Part shown: positions 866 to 8,939 of the stretch, in pieces
Layout: each line of letters opens with the position of its first letter
How positions within the stretch are numbered: position 1 is the first letter of the stretch
NCBI GenBank assembly: GCA_017428055.1
Contig: JAFRRN010000092.1
Location: 1-54,947 of the forward strand
Direction of reading: 5' to 3'
Source: Prevotella sp.
GTDB taxonomy: Bacteria > Bacteroidota > Bacteroidia > Bacteroidales > Bacteroidaceae
DNA length: 54,947 nt
The notes under the pieces: model-generated
Told to the model about the DNA's origin: nothing
What the model saw: the letters and a program-made list of their open reading frames with translations, nothing else
The model's database searches: none
Made by a program: the position numbers and the translations under genes

Positions 866-1001
866 CAAAAGTTTTGTCGTATGGAATATATTTCCTATCT
901 TTGCAACAACCAAAATTGAAATCAATATGAATGCTGTATCAATGGACAATCTGTGGCGTTATCTGCAAGGGCTTTCGCTGACGGCCAGCAACCGGAGGTG
1001 G
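866..1001 (+). repeat. 136 bp direct repeat, copy 1 (promoter plus antitoxin 5' end)
   Basis: This segment recurs at 1662-1797 with five single-base differences and no gaps. It covers a complete promoter, the leader and the first 25 codons of an antitoxin, and starts at the base after the methyltransferase stop codon. The two copies lead into unrelated antitoxin C-termini and unrelated toxins. Confidence 0.95.
873..903 (+). promoter_or_regulatory. Bacteroidetes promoter of toxin-antitoxin module 1
   Basis: TTTG at 873-876 and TATCTTTG at 896-903 are separated by 19 bp, an exact match to the phylum consensus. The antitoxin ATG follows at 927, leaving a leader of about 17-20 nt. Confidence 0.8.
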
Positions 1002-1196
1002 CTGATGGAACGCTTGGCAGAGCCTGCCGCACCGACCGAGACAATGAAAGAAAGAAAAAAGGAGTTGGCTTTTCCGAAAATCCCTAAAGATTACACCCCT
1101 TCCCCCGAAGTGTTGGCTATGACTTTAGGGCCATTGCCGAAAGATATTGATTTGGAGAAGGAGTTGAACGAGAGATGGGAAGAATGGGCAAGATGA
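927..1196 (+). CDS. Antitoxin of module 1 (pairs with PIN toxin)
   Basis: This 89-residue protein is probably the labile antitoxin of a type II module. The ATG at 927 sits a short leader downstream of the promoter and begins the same 25-residue N-terminus (MNAVSMDNLWRYL...) as the antitoxin at 1723. After residue 25 the two diverge completely. The C-terminal part here (LGPLPKDIDLEKELNERWEEW) is acidic and aromatic, as expected for a toxin-binding tail. The stop overlaps the toxin start by 4 bp (ATGA), so translation is probably coupled. I do not recognise a classical DNA-binding fold; the conserved N-terminus may do that job. The start at 750 in the same frame is rejected because it lies upstream of the promoter. 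Confidence 0.75.
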   Translation: MNAVSMDNLWRYLQGLSLTASNRRWLMERLAEPAAPTETMKERKKELAFPKIPKDYTPSPEVLAMTLGPLPKDIDLEKELNERWEEWAR

Positions 1197-1606
1197 AAGT
1201 ATTTCTCGACACCAATGTACTTCTTGACCACTTGGCCAAGCGTGAGGGATTTTATGCTGATGCTGCAATCATCTTCTCTATGGTCAATGATGGTTTGCTG
1301 TTGGGATTGATATCATCTCTTTCCATTATTAATTGTGCCTATGTGTTACCTAAGCATTATGATAGACATGATGTGATGGAACAAATCAAGATCATGCTCA
1401 AGATGTTTACGGTATGCAATGTTGATGCCTCCGTTTTAGAGAAAGCTGTAAACATCAATCCATACGACTTTGAAGATGCCGTGCAGTATCTGTCGTCGTT
1501 ACCGCATAAGCCCGATGTCATCATCACACGTGACAAAAGAGGTTTCCGTGATTTTGATATACCTGTTATGACTCCGAAAGAGTTTGTCACCAAAGCCAAA
1601 GAATAA
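1193..1606 (+). CDS. PIN-domain toxin (VapC-like ribonuclease)
   Basis: This 137-residue protein is a PIN-domain nuclease, most likely an RNA-cleaving toxin. The metal-binding acidic set is visible: D6 in FLDTNVLLD at the N-terminus, E94/D95 in YDFEDAVQYL, and D114 in VIITRDKRGF. ATG 1193 overlaps the antitoxin stop by four bases; two earlier in-frame starts (1175, 1184) would add only MGRMGK and lie inside the antitoxin gene. The length is normal for single-domain VapC proteins. It is cognate to the antitoxin at 927 by position. The known VapC activity is cleavage of tRNA or rRNA; the target here cannot be read from sequence. Confidence 0.85.
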   Translation: MKVFLDTNVLLDHLAKREGFYADAAIIFSMVNDGLLLGLISSLSIINCAYVLPKHYDRHDVMEQIKIMLKMFTVCNVDASVLEKAVNINPYDFEDAVQYLSSLPHKPDVIITRDKRGFRDFDIPVMTPKEFVTKAKE

Positions 1607-1614
1607 ATGTCCCG

Positions 1615-1649
1615 TGGAAATCAAACTGCAATCCGTCCGTGTGCGTGAC
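1615..1649 (+). pseudogene. 35 bp orphan copy of the DUF262-HNH gene 5' end
   Basis: These 35 bases are identical to 2288-2322, which covers codons 1-12 of the DUF262-HNH gene. Here they follow the PIN toxin stop and are cut off after GTGCGTGAC, 12 bp before the second 136 bp repeat begins. This shows that module 1 once sat directly in front of the DUF262 gene, or that the flank was duplicated together with the module. Confidence 0.9.
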
Positions 1650-1661
1650 TATTCGCGCACT

Positions 1662-1797
1662 CAAAAGTTTTGTCGTATGGAATATATTTTCTATCTTTAC
1701 AACAACCAAAATAGAAATCAATATGAATGCTGTATCAATGGACAATCTGTGGCGTTACCTGCAAGGGCTATCGCTGACGGCCAGCAACCGGAGGTGG
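1662..1797 (+). repeat. 136 bp direct repeat, copy 2 (promoter plus antitoxin 5' end)
   Basis: Second copy of the segment at 866-1001 (131 of 136 bases identical). One of the differences changes the last base of the -7 element from G to A. Confidence 0.95.
1669..1699 (+). promoter_or_regulatory. Bacteroidetes promoter of toxin-antitoxin module 2
   Basis: TTTG at 1669-1672 and TATCTTTA at 1692-1699 are 19 bp apart. The final A departs from consensus, so this copy may be weaker than the one at 873. Confidence 0.7.
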
Positions 1798-1950
1798 TTG
1801 GCTGAAAAACTTATAGAATTGCCTACGGAGGGAGTGATGACAGACGCAGAGATTAAAGATGGGTTAGCTGATGCTTTCAAACAATTGGATGAAGTGAAAA
1901 AAGGATGTCGCGAGACACGCGATGCAGAAGAACTGTTGTATGAGCTTTAG
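1723..1950 (+). CDS. Antitoxin of module 2 (pairs with RelE/ParE toxin)
   Basis: A 75-residue probable antitoxin. Its first 25 residues are the same as those of the antitoxin at 927, encoded by the second 136 bp repeat. The remaining 50 residues are unrelated and strongly charged (LADAFKQLDEVKKG, RETRDAEELLYEL), consistent with a helix that wraps a RelE/ParE toxin. The gene overlaps the toxin start at 1940 by 11 bp. The arrangement, a shared N-terminus with a swapped C-terminus and toxin, suggests that the N-terminus is an exchangeable operator-binding or dimerisation module; that role is inference. Confidence 0.75.
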   Translation: MNAVSMDNLWRYLQGLSLTASNRRWLAEKLIELPTEGVMTDAEIKDGLADAFKQLDEVKKGCRETRDAEELLYEL

Positions 1951-2284
1951 GATAAGGACCATCGAGAACTTTGACCGTCAAGCTAAGAAGTTGGCCAAGC
2001 ATTACCCGTCTTTTCGTGAAGACTATGCCAAATTGCTGGACGAACTTCGTGAAAATCCTCTGTTGGGTACTGATTTAGGCGGTGGCATCAGGAAAGTGCG
2101 GATGGCTATTGCCTCAAAGGGAAAGGGCAAAAGAGGAGGAGCCAGAGTGATTACCTTTGAGGCAGACATTATTGCCGAGACATACAATGGGGAACTCATT
2201 CTGCTGTCGGTTTACGATAAGTCAGAACAGAGTACCATCTCTGACCAAGAAATCATGCGATTGAAGAAACTTGCAACACAATAG
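1940..2284 (+). CDS. RelE/ParE-superfamily toxin
   Basis: A 114-residue probable type II toxin. It has the family layout: an N-terminal helical hairpin (RTIENFDRQAKKLAKHYPSF, YAKLLDELRENP), a GIRKVRM strand, the basic GKGKRGGARVIT strand and a late LILLSVYDKSEQ strand. RelE members cleave mRNA on the ribosome and ParE members poison gyrase; which applies is not clear, but the basic KGKGKRGG segment resembles the RelE/HigB branch. ATG 1940 is preferred because it starts the conserved fold and overlaps the antitoxin by 11 bp; ATG 1922 would add six residues. The stop is 2 bp before the DUF262 gene start. Confidence 0.8.
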   Translation: MSFRIRTIENFDRQAKKLAKHYPSFREDYAKLLDELRENPLLGTDLGGGIRKVRMAIASKGKGKRGGARVITFEADIIAETYNGELILLSVYDKSEQSTISDQEIMRLKKLATQ

Positions 2285-2286
2285 GA

Positions 2287-3396
2287 ATGGAAATCAAACT
2301 GCAATCCGTCCGTGTGCGTGACCTGATAGACGGCTATGTGAACGATGCCAACAAAGGCGTGTGGGGCTATGGCGGCAGGCTTGACATCCGCCCGCCTTAC
2401 CAGCGTGAGTTTCGCTATGACATCAAGCAGAGGCAGGCGGTAGTGCATACGATATTGAAAGGCTTTCCGCTCAACATCATGTATTGGAGCGTAGTGGGTG
2501 ACGACCAATACGAGATGATAGACGGGCAGCAGCGCACGTTGAGCATCTGCGAATATCGTTACCATGAGTTTCACATCATCGACCCTGAGCGCGGCACGCT
2601 CTATTTTGGCTCATTGACGAAGGAGGAGCAGGAACGGTTTCTGGATTACGAGCTGTCGGTCTATTTCTGCACGGGAACGGACAAGGAGAAGCTGGACTGG
2701 TTTCGTGTCATCAATATCGCTGGCGAGCGGCTGCTTGACCAAGAGCTGTTGAATGCCGTCTATGTGGGACCGTTTGTCAGCGATGCGCGTAAATATTTCT
2801 CCAAGATGAATTGTCCCGCATATAAGATGGGCGGTGACTTGTTGAATGGTAATGCCATTGAACAGGCATACTTGACAACGGTGCTCCGTTGGGCAGCCCG
2901 CAGGGAGGGTATCAAGGAGACGAGCGAGTATATGTCGAAGCACAAGGACGATGCCAATGCCAATCAGTTGTGGGCTTACTTCTCTGCCATCGTGACATGG
3001 GTACGCTCCACCTTTATTCAATATAGAAGGGAGATGAAGGGGCTGGATTGGGGATTGCTCTATGACACCTATCACGAAAACATCTACGACACGGCAGAAT
3101 TGGAGAGGCGCATCCACGACTTGATGGAGGATGATGAGATTATGAAGAAATCGGGCATCTACAGCTATGTGCTTAGTGGTGACTTGCGCGACTTGTCGTT
3201 CCGTTCCTTCGACAAGAAACAGAAACGGGAGGCATACGAGCGGCAGCAAGGCATCTGTCCCCATTGTGGCAAGCACTTTGAACTGGAAGAGATGGAGGGC
3301 GACCACATCACGCCGTGGGTGGAGGGTGGCACGACGACCGCCGACAATTGCCAGATGCTCTGTAAGAACTGTAACAGGCTGAAGGGCGCACGATAG
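2287..3396 (+). CDS. DUF262-HNH nuclease (GmrSD-type restriction protein)
   Basis: A 369-residue two-domain protein. The N-terminal DUF262 (ParB-like NTPase fold) is marked by PPYQREF around residue 36-42 and DGQQRT at about 79-84. The C-terminal HNH nuclease has a zinc-knuckle CPHC near residue 324, the GDHITPW catalytic element with D339/H340, a following N, and CKNC near the end. DUF262 proteins of the GmrSD group use a nucleotide to cut foreign or modified DNA. Next to an EcoRI-type methyltransferase it is a plausible restriction subunit. The start lies 2 bp after the toxin stop, so expression probably depends on the toxin-antitoxin promoter. The first 12 codons are duplicated at 1615-1649. 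Confidence 0.85.
   Translation: MEIKLQSVRVRDLIDGYVNDANKGVWGYGGRLDIRPPYQREFRYDIKQRQAVVHTILKGFPLNIMYWSVVGDDQYEMIDGQQRTLSICEYRYHEFHIIDPERGTLYFGSLTKEEQERFLDYELSVYFCTGTDKEKLDWFRVINIAGERLLDQELLNAVYVGPFVSDARKYFSKMNCPAYKMGGDLLNGNAIEQAYLTTVLRWAARREGIKETSEYMSKHKDDANANQLWAYFSAIVTWVRSTFIQYRREMKGLDWGLLYDTYHENIYDTAELERRIHDLMEDDEIMKKSGIYSYVLSGDLRDLSFRSFDKKQKREAYERQQGICPHCGKHFELEEMEGDHITPWVEGGTTTADNCQMLCKNCNRLKGAR
2288..2322 (+). repeat. 35 bp direct repeat, functional copy inside the DUF262-HNH gene
   Basis: Intact partner of the orphan copy at 1615-1649; the two are identical over 35 bases and differ immediately afterwards. Confidence 0.9.
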
Positions 3397-3410: not shown

Positions 3411-6400
3411 ATGGGATTAATCGAAAGTAATGTCACGGCGGCTGAGTTGATTACCCGCGTGAAGGAGATTGCCCAATATGAGGGCAAGGAAGGATGCGTC
3501 GCCAACAAGATGATGCACGAGACGTTGGTGTTGGCTTGTGCCGAGGGACTGAAGGGAACACGGCATGGCTTTGGCAACCTTTCCTCACAGGTGGACACCT
3601 TGTGTAAGATGCACCATGTCACGCCCACCGACACTAATGCCATCCACAGGATGAGACGCGACAGCAATAGCTCCAAGCCCCTCTTGCCCGAGGTGTTGCG
3701 TTTTGACTGCTTGGCTCTTGCGAAGTTTATTAGGGTGGTGTTTGGCGATAGTCATGCGAATATTCCATTGCCTCATGAGGAATCAGGGAATGACAAGGGT
3801 AAAGTGTTTGCCGGAGATACACGTGTTGATGCCATACGGTGCATAGTAGATGGGTGGGATGAACATACCATTCGAGTGAATGTGGATCAAGATGGAGTGG
3901 GGGATAGCTTGGTGGTAGATTATGAAAATACGGCTGAATACATCGACTTGTCATATCTGAACGACATATTATATAAAGGTGTACAGCTTAACTTGCTTGA
4001 TGTGGAGATGCGAGAGGGCAGGGCGATACCACGGATGGTGGTCGTGGAACCCGACTATCTGCTTGACATCAGCAGCATCGCCACGTGTTTTGAGGATTAT
4101 GGGCATCATCCCCTGTCGTTTGTCCTTAACCAGATGAAGCCCCGTGTCAATACCCCTGCCACGATCTTGGGAAACTTTGCGGGAAGTGCCTTGGATGATA
4201 TTATTAACAATGAGGATTACCATATCGGCGATACCATCAAGGCGAACTTCCGCGAGCGGGCGTTGGAATACTGTACTTGCGAGGAATTAGATATCGAGGA
4301 TTTCAAGAAGAACATCGCCATACAAGTCAATAACCTACGGCAGATAGTGGACGAGGTCTTCAAGAAATATGACAGGACGAAAGCCATCCTTGAACCTTCA
4401 TTCGTCTGTGAGAAGTTAGGAATACAAGGACGTGTGGACCTTATGACAACGGACATGCGTCTCTTGGTGGAGCAGAAGTCGGGACGCAACATGTACATCG
4501 AGCGGAAGAGTAGAAACAGGCACGGAAGCCTCCATATCGAGAAACACTATGTGCAGCTACTGCTTTATTTTGGCGTGTTGGCTTATAACTTCCATCTTTC
4601 ACGCAGGAATACGGACATCTATTTGCTCTATTCCAAGTACGGGTTGCCTGATGGGTTGCTGGAAGTACAGCCTCTACAGAAGTTGGTACATGAGGCAATC
4701 AAGTTCAGGAACGAGGTGGTTGCCATTGAATACCGTATCGCACAGGAGGGCTTTGGCAAATTCATCGACCAGATGACCCCCAAGACCATCAATGTGGAGG
4801 GGCTTGATGACTACTTCTTCAGGAGATACCAATTGCCATCGATTATGGAGATGACCGAGCCCCTGCACAGGCTCTCGCCATTGGAGCGGGCGTATTTCTG
4901 TAGGATGGCGACATTTGTGGTGAAGGAACAACTGCTTTCCAAGGTGGGAGCGGTGGAAGGAATGGGCAATAGCATGGCAGACCTGTGGAACATGCCGTTG
5001 GCAGAGAAACGAGAGACGGGCAATATCTACATGGGTTTGAAGGTCGTCGCCAAGGAGAAAAGCCGTGCGTCGAATGGCTTTGACACCATCACCCTTGCCA
5101 TTCCCGACCAAGGTGATGGCTTCCTTCCCAATTTCCGGCGGAGCGACATGGTGTATCTCTATGCCTATCGTGACGGGGAGGAACCCGATGTGCGCAAGAG
5201 TTTCCTATTTCAAGGCAATGTGGCAGACATACAAACGACGCAATTGACCATCCATTTGAACGACGGACAGCAGAATCCATTGTTGTTCAGGGATGACGTG
5301 CCGTATGCCGTGGAACATGCCTCGAGCGACATTGGCGGCAATAGTGCCTTGGCAGGATTGCACCGCTTTATTACCGCCATGCAGGACAGGAAGGACTTGC
5401 TATTGGGGCAACGACCGCCACAAGCCGACAAAAGCCGGCAATTGACCAAGAGTTACCATCCTGACTATGATGAGGTGTTGCTGAAAGCCAAGCAAGCCAT
5501 AGACTATTTCCTACTCATCGGTCCCCCGGGAACGGGCAAGACATCGATGGCTTTACGGTTCTTGGTGGAGGAGGAATTGGCGTCTACTTCGTCGAGTGTT
5601 CTGCTGATGGCATATACCAACAGGGCGGTGGACGAGATTTGCGCGATGTTGTGTGGGGTGGGGATTGACTTCATCCGATTGGGGAATGAATATAGTTGTG
5701 ACCCTCAATATAAACCCTATCTATTGGGAAACGCCATCGAGGAATGTCCCAAACTGGATTTCATCAAGCGGAAAATCCAAGAGACAAGGGTCATTGTGGC
5801 AACTACCGCCACGATGCAGTCGCGTCCACTCATCTTCCGAGTCAAGCATTTCTCGTTGGCAATCGTCGATGAGGCGAGCCAGATCTTGGAACCAAACATC
5901 ATAGGGCTGCTTTCCATGCACCATGACGCATCTGACATCGACCGCTTCATCTTGATTGGCGACTATAAGCAGTTGCCAGCGGTAGTGAGGCAAAACGCCA
6001 TCGATGCTGCCGTAGATAGCCCTTTGTTGAGGGAAATAGGGTTGGACGATTGCCGTAATTCACTCTTTGAGCGGCTCATCAGGACTGAAAGGAAACATGA
6101 GAGGACTGACTTTGTTGGCATTTTGCGTAAGCAGGGACGTATGCATCCTGCCATAGCGGAGTTTCCCAACACGATGTTTTACAGGAACGAAAGGCTCGAT
6201 GTCGTGCCATGTAAGCACCAGTTGGAAGGAGACATCGGCTATTCGTTGCCATCGGAAGATGTCCTCGATGACCAATTGAAGAGTCAACGGATGGTCTTTA
6301 TCCCATCCAAGATGTGCAAAAGTCCAGACATTTCCGACAAGGTAAATGTGGATGAGGCGCGTATCGTGGCAGACATTCTCCGTCGGGTGCATCGGTTCTA

Positions 6401-6779
6401 TGGAGAAGCGTTTGACATAAACAGAACCGTGGGTGTCATCGTTCCCTATCGCAACCAGATTGCCACCATCCGCAAGGAAATAGAGAAGTTGGGCATCCCG
6501 TGCCTGTTGGATGTGTCGATTGATACCGTTGAACGCTACCAAGGAAGCCAGCGTGACGTGATCATCTATTCCTTCACCATCCAATACCGTTACCAGATAG
6601 CGTTTCTGACAGCCAATTGTTTTGAGGAGGAGGGTCGCGAAATCGACAGAAAACTGAATGTTGCCATCACTCGGGCAAGGAAACAAATGATCATCACGGG
6701 CAACGAACAGGTGCTTTCTTACCATCCTACATTCAAGAAACTGATGGCTTTTGTCAAGGAAAAAGAAAAAAAATGCTAA
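3411..6779 (+). CDS. Dna2-like PD-(D/E)XK nuclease fused to superfamily 1 helicase
   Basis: A 1122-residue DNA or RNA helicase with a nuclease-like module. The C-terminal half has all superfamily 1 (Upf1/Dna2 branch) motifs: Walker A GPPGTGKT near residue 704, DEAS near 820, GDYKQLP near 850, VIVPYRNQ, VERYQGSQRD and NVAITRAR near 1084. Around residues 341-357, GRVDLM followed by VEQKSG gives the D...ExK signature of RecB/Cas4-like nucleases, with a downstream HIEKHYVQ. The first 130 residues are helical and unassigned. It follows the DUF262-HNH gene by 14 bp on the same strand, so it probably belongs to the same defence operon. A general repair role cannot be excluded. No iron-sulphur cysteine cluster is obvious. 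Confidence 0.8.
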   Translation: MGLIESNVTAAELITRVKEIAQYEGKEGCVANKMMHETLVLACAEGLKGTRHGFGNLSSQVDTLCKMHHVTPTDTNAIHRMRRDSNSSKPLLPEVLRFDCLALAKFIRVVFGDSHANIPLPHEESGNDKGKVFAGDTRVDAIRCIVDGWDEHTIRVNVDQDGVGDSLVVDYENTAEYIDLSYLNDILYKGVQLNLLDVEMREGRAIPRMVVVEPDYLLDISSIATCFEDYGHHPLSFVLNQMKPRVNTPATILGNFAGSALDDIINNEDYHIGDTIKANFRERALEYCTCEELDIEDFKKNIAIQVNNLRQIVDEVFKKYDRTKAILEPSFVCEKLGIQGRVDLMTTDMRLLVEQKSGRNMYIERKSRNRHGSLHIEKHYVQLLLYFGVLAYNFHLSRRNTDIYLLYSKYGLPDGLLEVQPLQKLVHEAIKFRNEVVAIEYRIAQEGFGKFIDQMTPKTINVEGLDDYFFRRYQLPSIMEMTEPLHRLSPLERAYFCRMATFVVKEQLLSKVGAVEGMGNSMADLWNMPLAEKRETGNIYMGLKVVAKEKSRASNGFDTITLAIPDQGDGFLPNFRRSDMVYLYAYRDGEEPDVRKSFLFQGNVADIQTTQLTIHLNDGQQNPLLFRDDVPYAVEHASSDIGGNSALAGLHRFITAMQDRKDLLLGQRPPQADKSRQLTKSYHPDYDEVLLKAKQAIDYFLLIGPPGTGKTSMALRFLVEEELASTSSSVLLMAYTNRAVDEICAMLCGVGIDFIRLGNEYSCDPQYKPYLLGNAIEECPKLDFIKRKIQETRVIVATTATMQSRPLIFRVKHFSLAIVDEASQILEPNIIGLLSMHHDASDIDRFILIGDYKQLPAVVRQNAIDAAVDSPLLREIGLDDCRNSLFERLIRTERKHERTDFVGILRKQGRMHPAIAEFPNTMFYRNERLDVVPCKHQLEGDIGYSLPSEDVLDDQLKSQRMVFIPSKMCKSPDISDKVNVDEARIVADILRRVHRFYGEAFDINRTVGVIVPYRNQIATIRKEIEKLGIPCLLDVSIDTVERYQGSQRDVIIYSFTIQYRYQIAFLTANCFEEEGREIDRKLNVAITRARKQMIITGNEQVLSYHPTFKKLMAFVKEKEKKC

Positions 6780-6930: not shown

Positions 6931-7398
6931 ATGGCTTATATGTCACAAGAAGGCTACGAGAATCTCGTAGAGGAACTGAAACGCTTGGAATCAATCGAGC
7001 GTCCGAAAATCTCAGCCGCCATTGCCGAGGCTCGCGACAAGGGAGACCTGAGCGAGAACTCAGAGTATGAGGCTGCTAAAGAGGCGCAGTCGCACCTCGA
7101 GTCGAAAATCAACCGTCTGAAAGTCACCATATCGGAGGCGAAGATTATTGACACGTCTCTCCTCAGTGGGGATGCCGTACAAATCCTCTCGAAGGTGGAA
7201 CTTACCAATCTTGACACCCAGGCGAAAATGGTTTATACCATTGTGAGTGAAAGCGAGGCAAATCTGCGTGAGGGGAAAATCTCCATCAAGACACCTATTG
7301 CGCAAGGATTGCTGAACAAGAAAGTGGGAGATGAGGCCGTCATTAACATCCCACGTGGTACGATCAGGCTTCGCGTTGACAACATTTCTATCGAATGA
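6931..7398 (+). CDS. greA: Transcription elongation factor GreA
   Basis: A 155-residue cytoplasmic factor that rescues backtracked RNA polymerase by stimulating transcript cleavage. The N-terminal coiled coil carries the diagnostic tip ARDKGDLSENSEY, with acidic residues D39 and E42 that enter the polymerase secondary channel. The C-terminal globular domain (from about residue 80) ends with GTIRLRVDNISIE. The length is normal. It has its own promoter at 6786 and is followed 30 bp later by the HIT-protein gene, with which it probably forms a two-gene operon closed by the terminator at 7819. Confidence 0.95.
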   Translation: MAYMSQEGYENLVEELKRLESIERPKISAAIAEARDKGDLSENSEYEAAKEAQSHLESKINRLKVTISEAKIIDTSLLSGDAVQILSKVELTNLDTQAKMVYTIVSESEANLREGKISIKTPIAQGLLNKKVGDEAVINIPRGTIRLRVDNISIE

Positions 7399-7428
7399 CC
7401 ATACCTTTTTACCATAAATTTGAATATC

Positions 7429-7827
7429 ATGGACATCTTTTCAAAAATTGCCGCTGGCGTAATTCCGAGTTATAAATGCGCTGAGAGTGAGGACTTCTAT
7501 GCCTTCCTTGACATCAATCCATTGGTGAAAGGGCATACATTGGTGATTCCGCGCCGCGAAGTGGATTACATCTTCGACATGGAGGATGAGGAGCTTGCCG
7601 CTTTTCAGGTGTTTGCCAAGAAAGTTGCCATTGCCATCAAGAAAGCCTTTCCATGCAAGAAAGTGGCTGAAGTGGTGCTTGGATTGGAAGTGGCTCATGC
7701 ACATATCCACCTTATCCCGATGCAAAGCGAGGGGGATGTGGACTTCAGGAAGGAGAAATTGAAACTGTCGGAAGAGGAGTTTAAGGCTATTGCCGATAAG
7801 ATTTATACAGAATTTATAAAGGGTTAG
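7429..7827 (+). CDS. HIT family nucleotide hydrolase
   Basis: A 132-residue histidine-triad protein, probably hydrolysing purine-nucleoside phosphoramidates or diadenosine polyphosphates. The triad HAHIHLIP is near residue 89-96, and the N-terminus has the usual DIFSKIAAGVIPSYK and FLDINPLVKGHTLVIP strands. ATG 7429 is chosen over the TTG at 7420 because the family begins with this MDIF-type sequence. It lies 30 bp after greA; the stop codon sits inside the ascending arm of the terminator hairpin. Confidence 0.92.
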   Translation: MDIFSKIAAGVIPSYKCAESEDFYAFLDINPLVKGHTLVIPRREVDYIFDMEDEELAAFQVFAKKVAIAIKKAFPCKKVAEVVLGLEVAHAHIHLIPMQSEGDVDFRKEKLKLSEEEFKAIADKIYTEFIKG

Positions 7828-7848
7828 CGTTGGAGCTAACCCTTTTTT
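7819..7848 (+). terminator. Rho-independent terminator after the HIT gene
   Basis: AAGGGTTAGC (7819-7828) pairs with GCTAACCCTT (7835-7844) over a 6 nt loop, with a T run to 7848. The HIT stop codon TAG at 7825-7827 is part of the stem. Only 2 bp separate it from the end of the convergent guanylyltransferase gene, so it may serve both strands. Confidence 0.85.
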
Positions 7849-7850
7849 GG

Positions 7851-8939
7851 TCAGATATATTCGCCGCCTTTCTTGATATGCACCTCGTTGACATATTTCC
7901 TGACCAAAGCCGATGAGTCCTCCTTCTTGCAGACCAAGAGCATGTTGTCGTTTTCGGCAACAATGAAGCCATTGAGTCCATTCAATACGGCGAACTTGCC
8001 TTTTGAAAGCTTGATAATGGTGTTGTGGCAATCGTCAATCAATACGTCGCTGTCGATGACGACATTTTCGCCCTCAACATTCTGCATCGCCTCGTAAATG
8101 CTATGCCAAGCACCAAGGTCTGCCCAGCCGAAGTCACATTTCTTGACGTAGACGTTCTCCGACTTCTCGAGGATGCCGTAGTCAATGGACAGGTTGGGGT
8201 AAAGGGGGAAGTTCTTTTCTATGTATTCGTTTTCCTTGGCAATGCTGTAGTCGGGGGAGGTAATGTCTAATTGGCGCAAGACGGCGGGCAGAAGAGTCTC
8301 GAAACATTGCAGAAGGTATTTCACGTTTGACATGAAAAGACCAGTGTTCCAATAAAATTCACCGCTCTCCATGAACATACGGGCAAAGTCGCGGTCGGGT
8401 TTCTCCGTGAAAGACTTGACTTGATAGAGTCCTTTTGCTACCTCTTCACCCAATTGGACATAGCCGTAGCCTGGTTCAGGACGGGTGGGCTTGACACCCA
8501 TTGTGAGCAATGCGTCATGGTTTTGCACGAAAGAGATGCCTTCCATGATGTTTTGTAAGAACAAGTCATCATGAAGGACAGAATGGTCGGAAGGGGCGAC
8601 AATCAAGTTGGCATCTTTGTTGAAGTGCTTCACACGGTGGGCTGCCCAAGCCACACTTGGAGCCGTGTTGCGGTAAATGGGTTCTATCATCAGGCACTTC
8701 TCGGGAAGGTCGGGCAATTGCTCACGTACCAAATGGGCATACATCTCGTTGGTGTTGATGAGTATATGGTCTCTCGGAAGAATCTTGGCGAATCGGTCAA
8801 AGGTTTGCTGTAGCTGTGTTCTCCCAATGCCGAAGAAGTCTATGAACTGCTTGGGATGGCGCTCACGGCTGCAAGGCCAAAGCCTCCTGCCTTTGCCCCC
8901 AGAAAGAATCACGCAATAGGTGTTGTCGTTGTTTGTCAT
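7851..8939 (-). CDS. manC: Mannose-1-phosphate guanylyltransferase
   Basis: This 362-residue enzyme makes GDP-mannose from mannose-1-phosphate and GTP, the precursor for mannose- and fucose-containing surface glycans. The N-terminal nucleotide-binding signature is clear: ILSGGKGRRLWPCSRERHPKQF-type motif near residues 10-31. Later family blocks include EPIYRNTAPSVAWAA, APSDHSV, FTEKPD, FYWNTGLF and the KCDFGWADLGAWHS catalytic region near the C-terminus. It lacks the extra C-terminal phosphomannose isomerase domain seen in bifunctional homologues. The start MTNNDN at 8939 is preferred; 20 more codons are open upstream but do not resemble the family. It converges on the HIT gene. Confidence 0.92.
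   Translation of the reverse strand: MTNNDNTYCVILSGGKGRRLWPCSRERHPKQFIDFFGIGRTQLQQTFDRFAKILPRDHILINTNEMYAHLVREQLPDLPEKCLMIEPIYRNTAPSVAWAAHRVKHFNKDANLIVAPSDHSVLHDDLFLQNIMEGISFVQNHDALLTMGVKPTRPEPGYGYVQLGEEVAKGLYQVKSFTEKPDRDFARMFMESGEFYWNTGLFMSNVKYLLQCFETLLPAVLRQLDITSPDYSIAKENEYIEKNFPLYPNLSIDYGILEKSENVYVKKCDFGWADLGAWHSIYEAMQNVEGENVVIDSDVLIDDCHNTIIKLSKGKFAVLNGLNGFIVAENDNMLLVCKKEDSSALVRKYVNEVHIKKGGEYI

Follow-up and report, generated by a model that had tools for sequence, protein, structure and literature searches.

Analysis of a 54,947-nucleotide stretch of a Prevotella sp. draft genome (contig JAFRRN010000092.1 of assembly GCA_017428055.1; hereafter the window, meaning the whole stretch) revealed two toxin–antitoxin (TA) modules lying one behind the other between a DNA methylase gene (M) and a gene for a putative restriction nuclease (R). 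On the sequence evidence, we consider it fairly probable that these are two type II TA operons in the M–R junction, and that the second joined through the 5′ end of R and left 35 bases of the R start as a scar. The features concerned are as follows.

11–865, + strand: M, EcoRI-type adenine-specific DNA methylase (PF13651, E 2e-103; PADLOC MTase_II, E 6e-84)
866–1004, + strand: left repeat copy 1, promoter-like site (TTTG at 873–876, 19 nt, TATCTTTG at 896–903) and antitoxin head codons 1–26
927–1196, + strand: antitoxin 1, 89 amino acids; head identical to that of module 2, tail of the PIN_3-linked kind
1193–1606, + strand: toxin 1, PIN_3 ribonuclease-like, 137 amino acids (PF13470, E 5e-15); its start overlaps the antitoxin 1 stop by 4 bp
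1615–1649, + strand: orphan copy of R bases 2–36, 35/35 to live R
1650–1662, + strand: 13-nt spacer TATTCGCGCACTC between the orphan and the second promoter; its last base is common to the left repeat
1662–1800, + strand: left repeat copy 2, promoter-like site with −7 box TATCTTTA at 1692–1699, and antitoxin head
1723–1950, + strand: antitoxin 2, 75 amino acids, tail of the RelE-linked kind
1940–2284, + strand: toxin 2, RelE/HigB-like, 114 amino acids (PF06296, E 4e-9); its start overlaps the antitoxin 2 stop by 11 bp
2287–3396, + strand: R, GmrSD_N (DUF262) and HNH putative restriction nuclease, 369 amino acids (PADLOC REase_II, E 5e-130)

The orphan at 1615–1649 and the live R at 2288–2322 agree at all 35 positions, a match that occurred in none of 100 dinucleotide shuffles of the window, and no third copy was identified in the 4.2-Mb draft genome with up to three mismatches allowed. 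The orphan opens with GTG and the live gene with ATG. Second copies of each R start were sought upstream of R in 172 distinct R loci (692 kb, the window included) and in 40 loci of a second, more distant clade, with a score of at least 19, so that weaker copies are missed. Orphan R starts were found in three of the 172 loci (the window, L052, and L120), each time in a junction with inserted genes, and in none of the 40. Their scores of 35 (window), 39 (L120), and 23 (L052) compare with maxima of 14, 12, and 13 in 60 shuffles each. Since every orphan R start in this survey lies in a junction that holds inserted genes, it is probable that the second module came in at the 5′ end of R and brought a fresh R start along.

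The other two loci share one order, in which M is directly followed by the orphan, a Bro-N gene, and the live R. The orphan measures 35 bp in the window; in L120, it comprises 25 bp of R, which the bases 5′ of the start extend to 39 bp; and in L052, it matches at 19/19 plus 29/32 positions (~50 bp). A second M tail (YARILI) follows the orphan of L120, 22 of 28 bases of which match the tail of the closest relative; a motif of this type alone occurs in 0.55% of random 60-mers. The 14 nt before the L120 orphan, at the end of M, are identical to those before live R, at the end of the Bro-N gene, which makes the duplicated stretch 39 bp long; this identity might reflect chance, conversion, or target duplication.

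Methylase, nuclease, and the modules between them

M and R constitute a putative type II restriction–modification pair. The PADLOC type II nuclease model covers nearly the full length of R, and a methylase gene lies upstream of R in 168 of the 172 distinct loci and upstream of and abutting R in all 40 loci of the second clade. The conserved pairing and the names of the PADLOC models suggest that methylation by M may shield DNA from R at the same sequence. As in restriction loci with embedded accessory genes, extra genes lie here between the conserved M and R. Because M and R form a pair in relatives, the arrangement is to be described as two TA operons in an M–R junction and not as a free-standing pair of modules with common flanks. 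This context, namely that the DUF262-HNH gene is the putative R of a pair whose M ends at 865, had not been noticed in an earlier note made from the letters of this DNA. The stop codon of M ends one base 5′ of the first left repeat copy, and the start of R sits 2 bp past the stop of the RelE toxin gene. Among named records, the closest relatives of R (83–88% identity) come mostly from rumen Prevotella, Xylanibacter, and Bacteroidaceae genomes.

Both modules have the layout of type II TA systems, with a small antitoxin gene before and overlapping a gene for a toxin of a known family; PIN_3 and RelE score above the Pfam cut-off, and the antitoxins match no Pfam family above it. The DTN, EDA, and ITR positions are conserved in the PIN toxin and six aligned relatives (seven sequences), and RK.RM and SK.KGK are invariant in the RelE alignment (eight sequences) and present in toxin 2. 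Since these invariant residues are retained, both toxins look intact. The nearest solved relative of toxin 2 by sequence is HigB-2 (chains at E 4e-9); the PIN toxin had no match among PDB sequences at E 0.01. Each antitoxin would neutralize its toxin and repress its own promoter.

The left repeat (866–1004 versus 1662–1800) is identical at 133 of 139 positions, and a DNA search of the genome (E 0.001) placed it nowhere besides these two sites. Three of its six mismatches fall within the antitoxin head and are silent, leaving 26 of 26 residues identical. The earlier note had described a twice-occurring promoter and antitoxin-head segment of 136 bp, a 35-bp DUF262-HNH start present both as an orphan and in the live gene, and unrelated cores between these flanks. 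All of this was borne out, with the first segment extending to 139 nt with its six mismatches, the second matching in full and in no shuffle, and the cores belonging to PIN_3 (PF13470) and RelE (PF06296).

The promoter-like sites in both copies follow what we take to be the Bacteroidetes-type consensus. This motif was used in place of sigma-70 promoters, for which a single site was found, below the shuffle mean of 4.1. Because R starts 2 bp behind the RelE stop and two antitoxin promoters lie between R and M, R is probably transcribed partly from these promoters, which are presumably autoregulated. The −7 box of copy 2 (TATCTTTA) differs from that of copy 1 (TATCTTTG) by one base, a final A versus G, and R may therefore rely chiefly on promoter copy 1 together with transcription running through from M. 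On the + strand, the M–R junction showed no terminator-like site. Loss of the locus might be penalized by toxin as well as by restriction.

Junction contents and antitoxin heads in relatives

The junction census started from 193 loci, of which 21 were dropped (14 duplicates and seven without the 5′ end of R, including L143 from the same genome) to give the 172 distinct loci. Four of these have no upstream M: L093, L134, and L144 have only 536, 148, and 66 bp of upstream DNA, L144 being a locus of the same genome that ends at a contig edge, and L096 has its methylase 3′ of R, at 7360–7986. M and R directly adjoin in most loci: the gap between them is −72 to 71 bp in 145 of the 168 loci with upstream M and −3 to 51 bp in the second clade, whose count of 40 is not deduplicated. 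At least 79 bp separate the two genes in the remaining 23, with 694–1948 bp in 17 of them and 79–257 bp in six.

Translated open reading frames (ORFs) of the 17 large junctions encode a Bro-N protein in nine, an ATPase with a partner that we take to be TOPRIM-like in five, a 227-amino-acid "unknown" protein in one (L067), and TA modules in two. The second gene of the ATPase type was listed in four of the five junctions; in L081, the ORF filter listed the ATPase and hid the partner gene, and the final bases match those of L079. Hidden Markov model (HMM) scans, made on one representative per kind, matched the Bro-N protein to PADLOC PDC-S13 (E 2e-117) and the ATPase to PDC-M31A (E 4e-68) and also AriA (E 2e-24); the partner matched DUF4276 below the Pfam cut-off. 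Relatives close in both genes (M 86–87%, R 83–87%) have an empty junction (L066, L074, and L075), the "unknown" protein (L067), or the ATPase with its TOPRIM-like partner (L112), which indicates that M and R are retained as the cargo between them changes.

The two-module arrangement was found in one of the 172 distinct R loci, namely the window. Elsewhere in this genome, contig 36 carries an antitoxin and a PIN_3 toxin between another M and another R (L145, 3100–4123); this antitoxin has no Pfam match and is without the head of the window modules. On contig 35 (L143, 3400–4420), M and R are separated by a Kinase-PolyVal gene, with an alignment to R that begins only at residue 35. All three M–R pairs of this genome with a readable junction thus hold inserts.

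Of 398 genomes of the genus, 86 have a relative of antitoxin 1 at E 1e-5; in many cases, the match is confined to the head. A census of 98 loci and the two window modules gave 73 distinct heads (two from the window), of which 59 were typed against seven toxin references and 14 remained untyped. The toxins behind the typed heads comprise 13 PIN of the PF01850 type, 12 RelE, 11 PIN_3 like that of the window, 10 ParE, six and four in two other PIN_3 groups, and three PemK-like, where the PemK reference matches below the Pfam cut-off and some class assignments rest on 31–50% identity.

Heads of antitoxins of at least 60 amino acids (69 heads) were compared over 26 codons; over 36 codons, the chimera signal was less sharp, since the repeat extends only to codon 26. 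Between the two window heads, the protein is identical and the DNA 96% identical, with the 61 upstream bases 95% alike. Theirs is the highest head identity among 1443 pairs of different toxin class, and five RelE/ParE-class pairs also reach 0.91–0.95. The head of antitoxin 1 has M6, D7, and R23, as in antitoxin 2, whereas L6, N7, and either Q or K at position 23 are found in each of the 10 other heads in its toxin class. The tail of antitoxin 1 scores best with its own toxin class. Module 1 thus combines a module 2-type head with a PIN-type tail, which makes head exchange likely. Antitoxin 1 therefore seems to be a head/tail chimera, for which recombination within the antitoxin gene would be the simplest account.

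Origin of the arrangement and known counterparts

In the proposed course of events, one of the modules first settled in the M–R junction, and DNA carrying the other module and an R start subsequently joined the 5′ end of R, with one end joined by homology in R and the other illegitimately. For DNA uptake and conjugation, available parts of the literature describe joining of this mixed kind, homologous on one side and illegitimate on the opposite side (PMC3240628). The join would leave 35 bases of the R start as a scar, and the second copy would keep R readable. Orphans in general would then represent joins of the resident R start with incoming DNA that bears cargo and an R start of its own, and only short scars would survive, since cargo flanked by long direct repeats would be lost again by deletion. 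The 96% identity of the heads could reflect recombination between them or the descent of both from one promoter-head unit.

A possible but doubtful alternative, and the one nearest to the model of the earlier note, is tandem duplication of a module together with the R start, followed by replacement of one core through recombination within the flanking head and R-start sequences. The near-identity of the promoter-head segments, the full identity of the R starts, and the chimeric look of antitoxin 1 would all fit such an event, and the duplicated unit would begin right at the M stop. However, it leaves 13 nt at the junction without an assigned origin, core replacement would need recombination within 35 bp on the right, and the orphans of L052 and L120 accompany a single unrelated cargo with no duplicated module.

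The idea put forward in the earlier note, that alternative toxin cores are exchanged or accumulated between common ends as cassettes, is supported in part. The arrangement is not fixed among relatives, other cargo occupies their M–R junctions, antitoxin 1 looks chimeric, and PIN, RelE, ParE, and PemK-like toxins follow relatives of the antitoxin head elsewhere in the genus. None of these stands beside M or R, however: with flanks of 1–2 kb fetched, 0 of 71 other distinct head loci adjoin either gene, and both "common ends" therefore occur together only here. The right flank is moreover not a cassette end of toxin modules but the beginning of a restriction gene, which is duplicated in L052 and L120 as well, with unrelated cargo. 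Repeated exchange between the two ends is at most a possibility, and a second genome of the species did not come to light.

Movement of the modules as mobile units by a recombinase or transposase, with the 35 bp as a target-site duplication, is improbable. The second insert is indeed bordered by direct repeats, as are those of L120 (39 bp) and L052 (~50 bp), but the repeat length varies among the three, in contrast to the constant length of target-site duplications of transposons and insertion sequences. The cargo is also unrelated in the three cases, all three duplications include the R start, and no recombinase or transposase was recognized by eye among the translated ORFs of 15 listed inserts, HMM scans covering the window genes and one representative per cargo kind. 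Chimeric assembly of two strains with one module each between M and R, merged through the repeats, is very improbable: with 106 contigs and a completeness of 93.57%, the genome is a draft, and repeats favor misassembly, but an overlap join would not create the succession of orphan, 13 nt, and promoter, which is expected in neither single-module form, and independent loci show the same type of junction.

Several observations weigh against entry of the second module through the 5′ end of R, or against parts of that reading. TA genes in the M–R junction were seen in this genome only (the window and L145), and the contig start truncates M, whose 5′ part is missing. Fourteen of the 17 large-cargo junctions lack an orphan R start above the shuffle maximum, so that the R-start route is not the only one; this comparison covered 18 junctions, the 17 large ones and L143, which lacks the 5′ end of R. 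In L053, with 88 bp between M and R, the R-start score of 11 against a shuffle maximum of 10 falls below the scan cut-off, and this locus is left out of the orphan count. Besides RelE-type heads, M6 and R23 also mark some heads in two other PIN groups (M6 in 3/6 and 2/4, R23 in 4/6 and 2/4). The spacer reads YSRT in one frame, and 165 of 167 M tails carry [YF]xR[ILVF][LIVFA][IV]; this weakly hints at a possible remnant of the C-terminus of another methylase, given that random 13-mers fit [YF]xR[ILVFT] at a frequency of 0.0037. The nearest precedent, the Phd-Doc-like tvrAT pair of pneumococci, is reported in the accessible part of its description to suppress shuffling, with no evidence of addiction found there (PMC6265443).

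A wider generalization, which we regard as unlikely, is that the M–R junction of EcoRI-type/DUF262-HNH pairs serves as a dedicated acquisition slot. Incoming defense or toxin genes would bring the tail of their own M and a fresh R start and join within the first 25–50 bases of the resident R, leaving M and R unbroken; scars would record the arrivals, and an antitoxin whose promoter precedes R would become the restriction controller.

R-linked genes of type I (hsd) loci include the rlo genes (RloA/RloB) and DinD-like genes. Similar kinds of cargo, a Bro-N protein and an ATPase with a TOPRIM-like partner, occupy the M–R junction in relatives; the rlo and DinD-like genes belong to hsd loci, whereas here an EcoRI-type M is paired with a DUF262-HNH R.

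That toxin or TA genes lie inside restriction loci is already known. In the SpnIV type I locus of pneumococci, hsdM and hsdR flank the tvrAT pair (PMC6265443), which resembles the window modules in being a TA pair enclosed by the methylase and nuclease genes for restriction. As far as the available account goes, that locus is of type I, with its own tyrosine recombinase tvrR and shuffling of hsdS, whereas the window has a type II-like M–R pair, two TA pairs, and an R-start scar. The prrC gene, which lies within the type IC locus ecoprrI (PMC12707154, PMC3506569), likewise places a growth-arresting nuclease inside a restriction locus; according to the accessible portions of these sources, it is the restriction complex itself that holds PrrC in a latent state, whereas each toxin of the window has an antitoxin gene of its own. 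Type II TA pairs are described, in the part of the source at hand, as exchanging toxin and antitoxin families (PMC2701414). The combination of one antitoxin type with several toxin families is common to both cases; the shared part here is a 26-codon head with its promoter, and both forms stand side by side. A literature search, mostly at the level of listings and covering few subscription journals, found no account of TA genes embedded in an EcoRI-type/DUF262-HNH pair, and none of two stacked TA pairs there together with an R-start scar.

The readable scar suggests how a restriction locus may gather defense or addiction genes between its two core genes with both left intact. Orphan R starts could serve as a simple signature by which to detect further acquisitions and perhaps to place them in order, and the locus offers a natural test case for the question whether a restriction nuclease can come under the control of an antitoxin promoter.

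Neighboring genes and other replicons

R is followed by a gene for a 1122-amino-acid helicase at 3411–6779 (AAA_11/AAA_12, with a partial match to PADLOC MkoA). This gene was rejected as part of the system, with no match of at least 30% identity in the 1.5–6 kb flanks of 109 other tabulated loci, weaker matches having been filtered out. On contig 17 of the same genome, a fragment (L146) matches R residues 293–369.

The phage search returned five records, and viral contigs gave four pattern matches, none of which was a relative. Plasmids contributed 50 records at E 1e-20. In six annotated plasmid regions, M abuts R in three (one of them judged from the positions of unnamed coding sequences only), M is not listed in two, and one has an insert. 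The Enterococcus dispar plasmid NZ_CP116586.1 (L368, 925–3501) carries a predicted ABC-F resistance gene (optrA) between an EcoRI-type methylase gene and a DUF262 gene, the same junction being thus occupied in another phylum.

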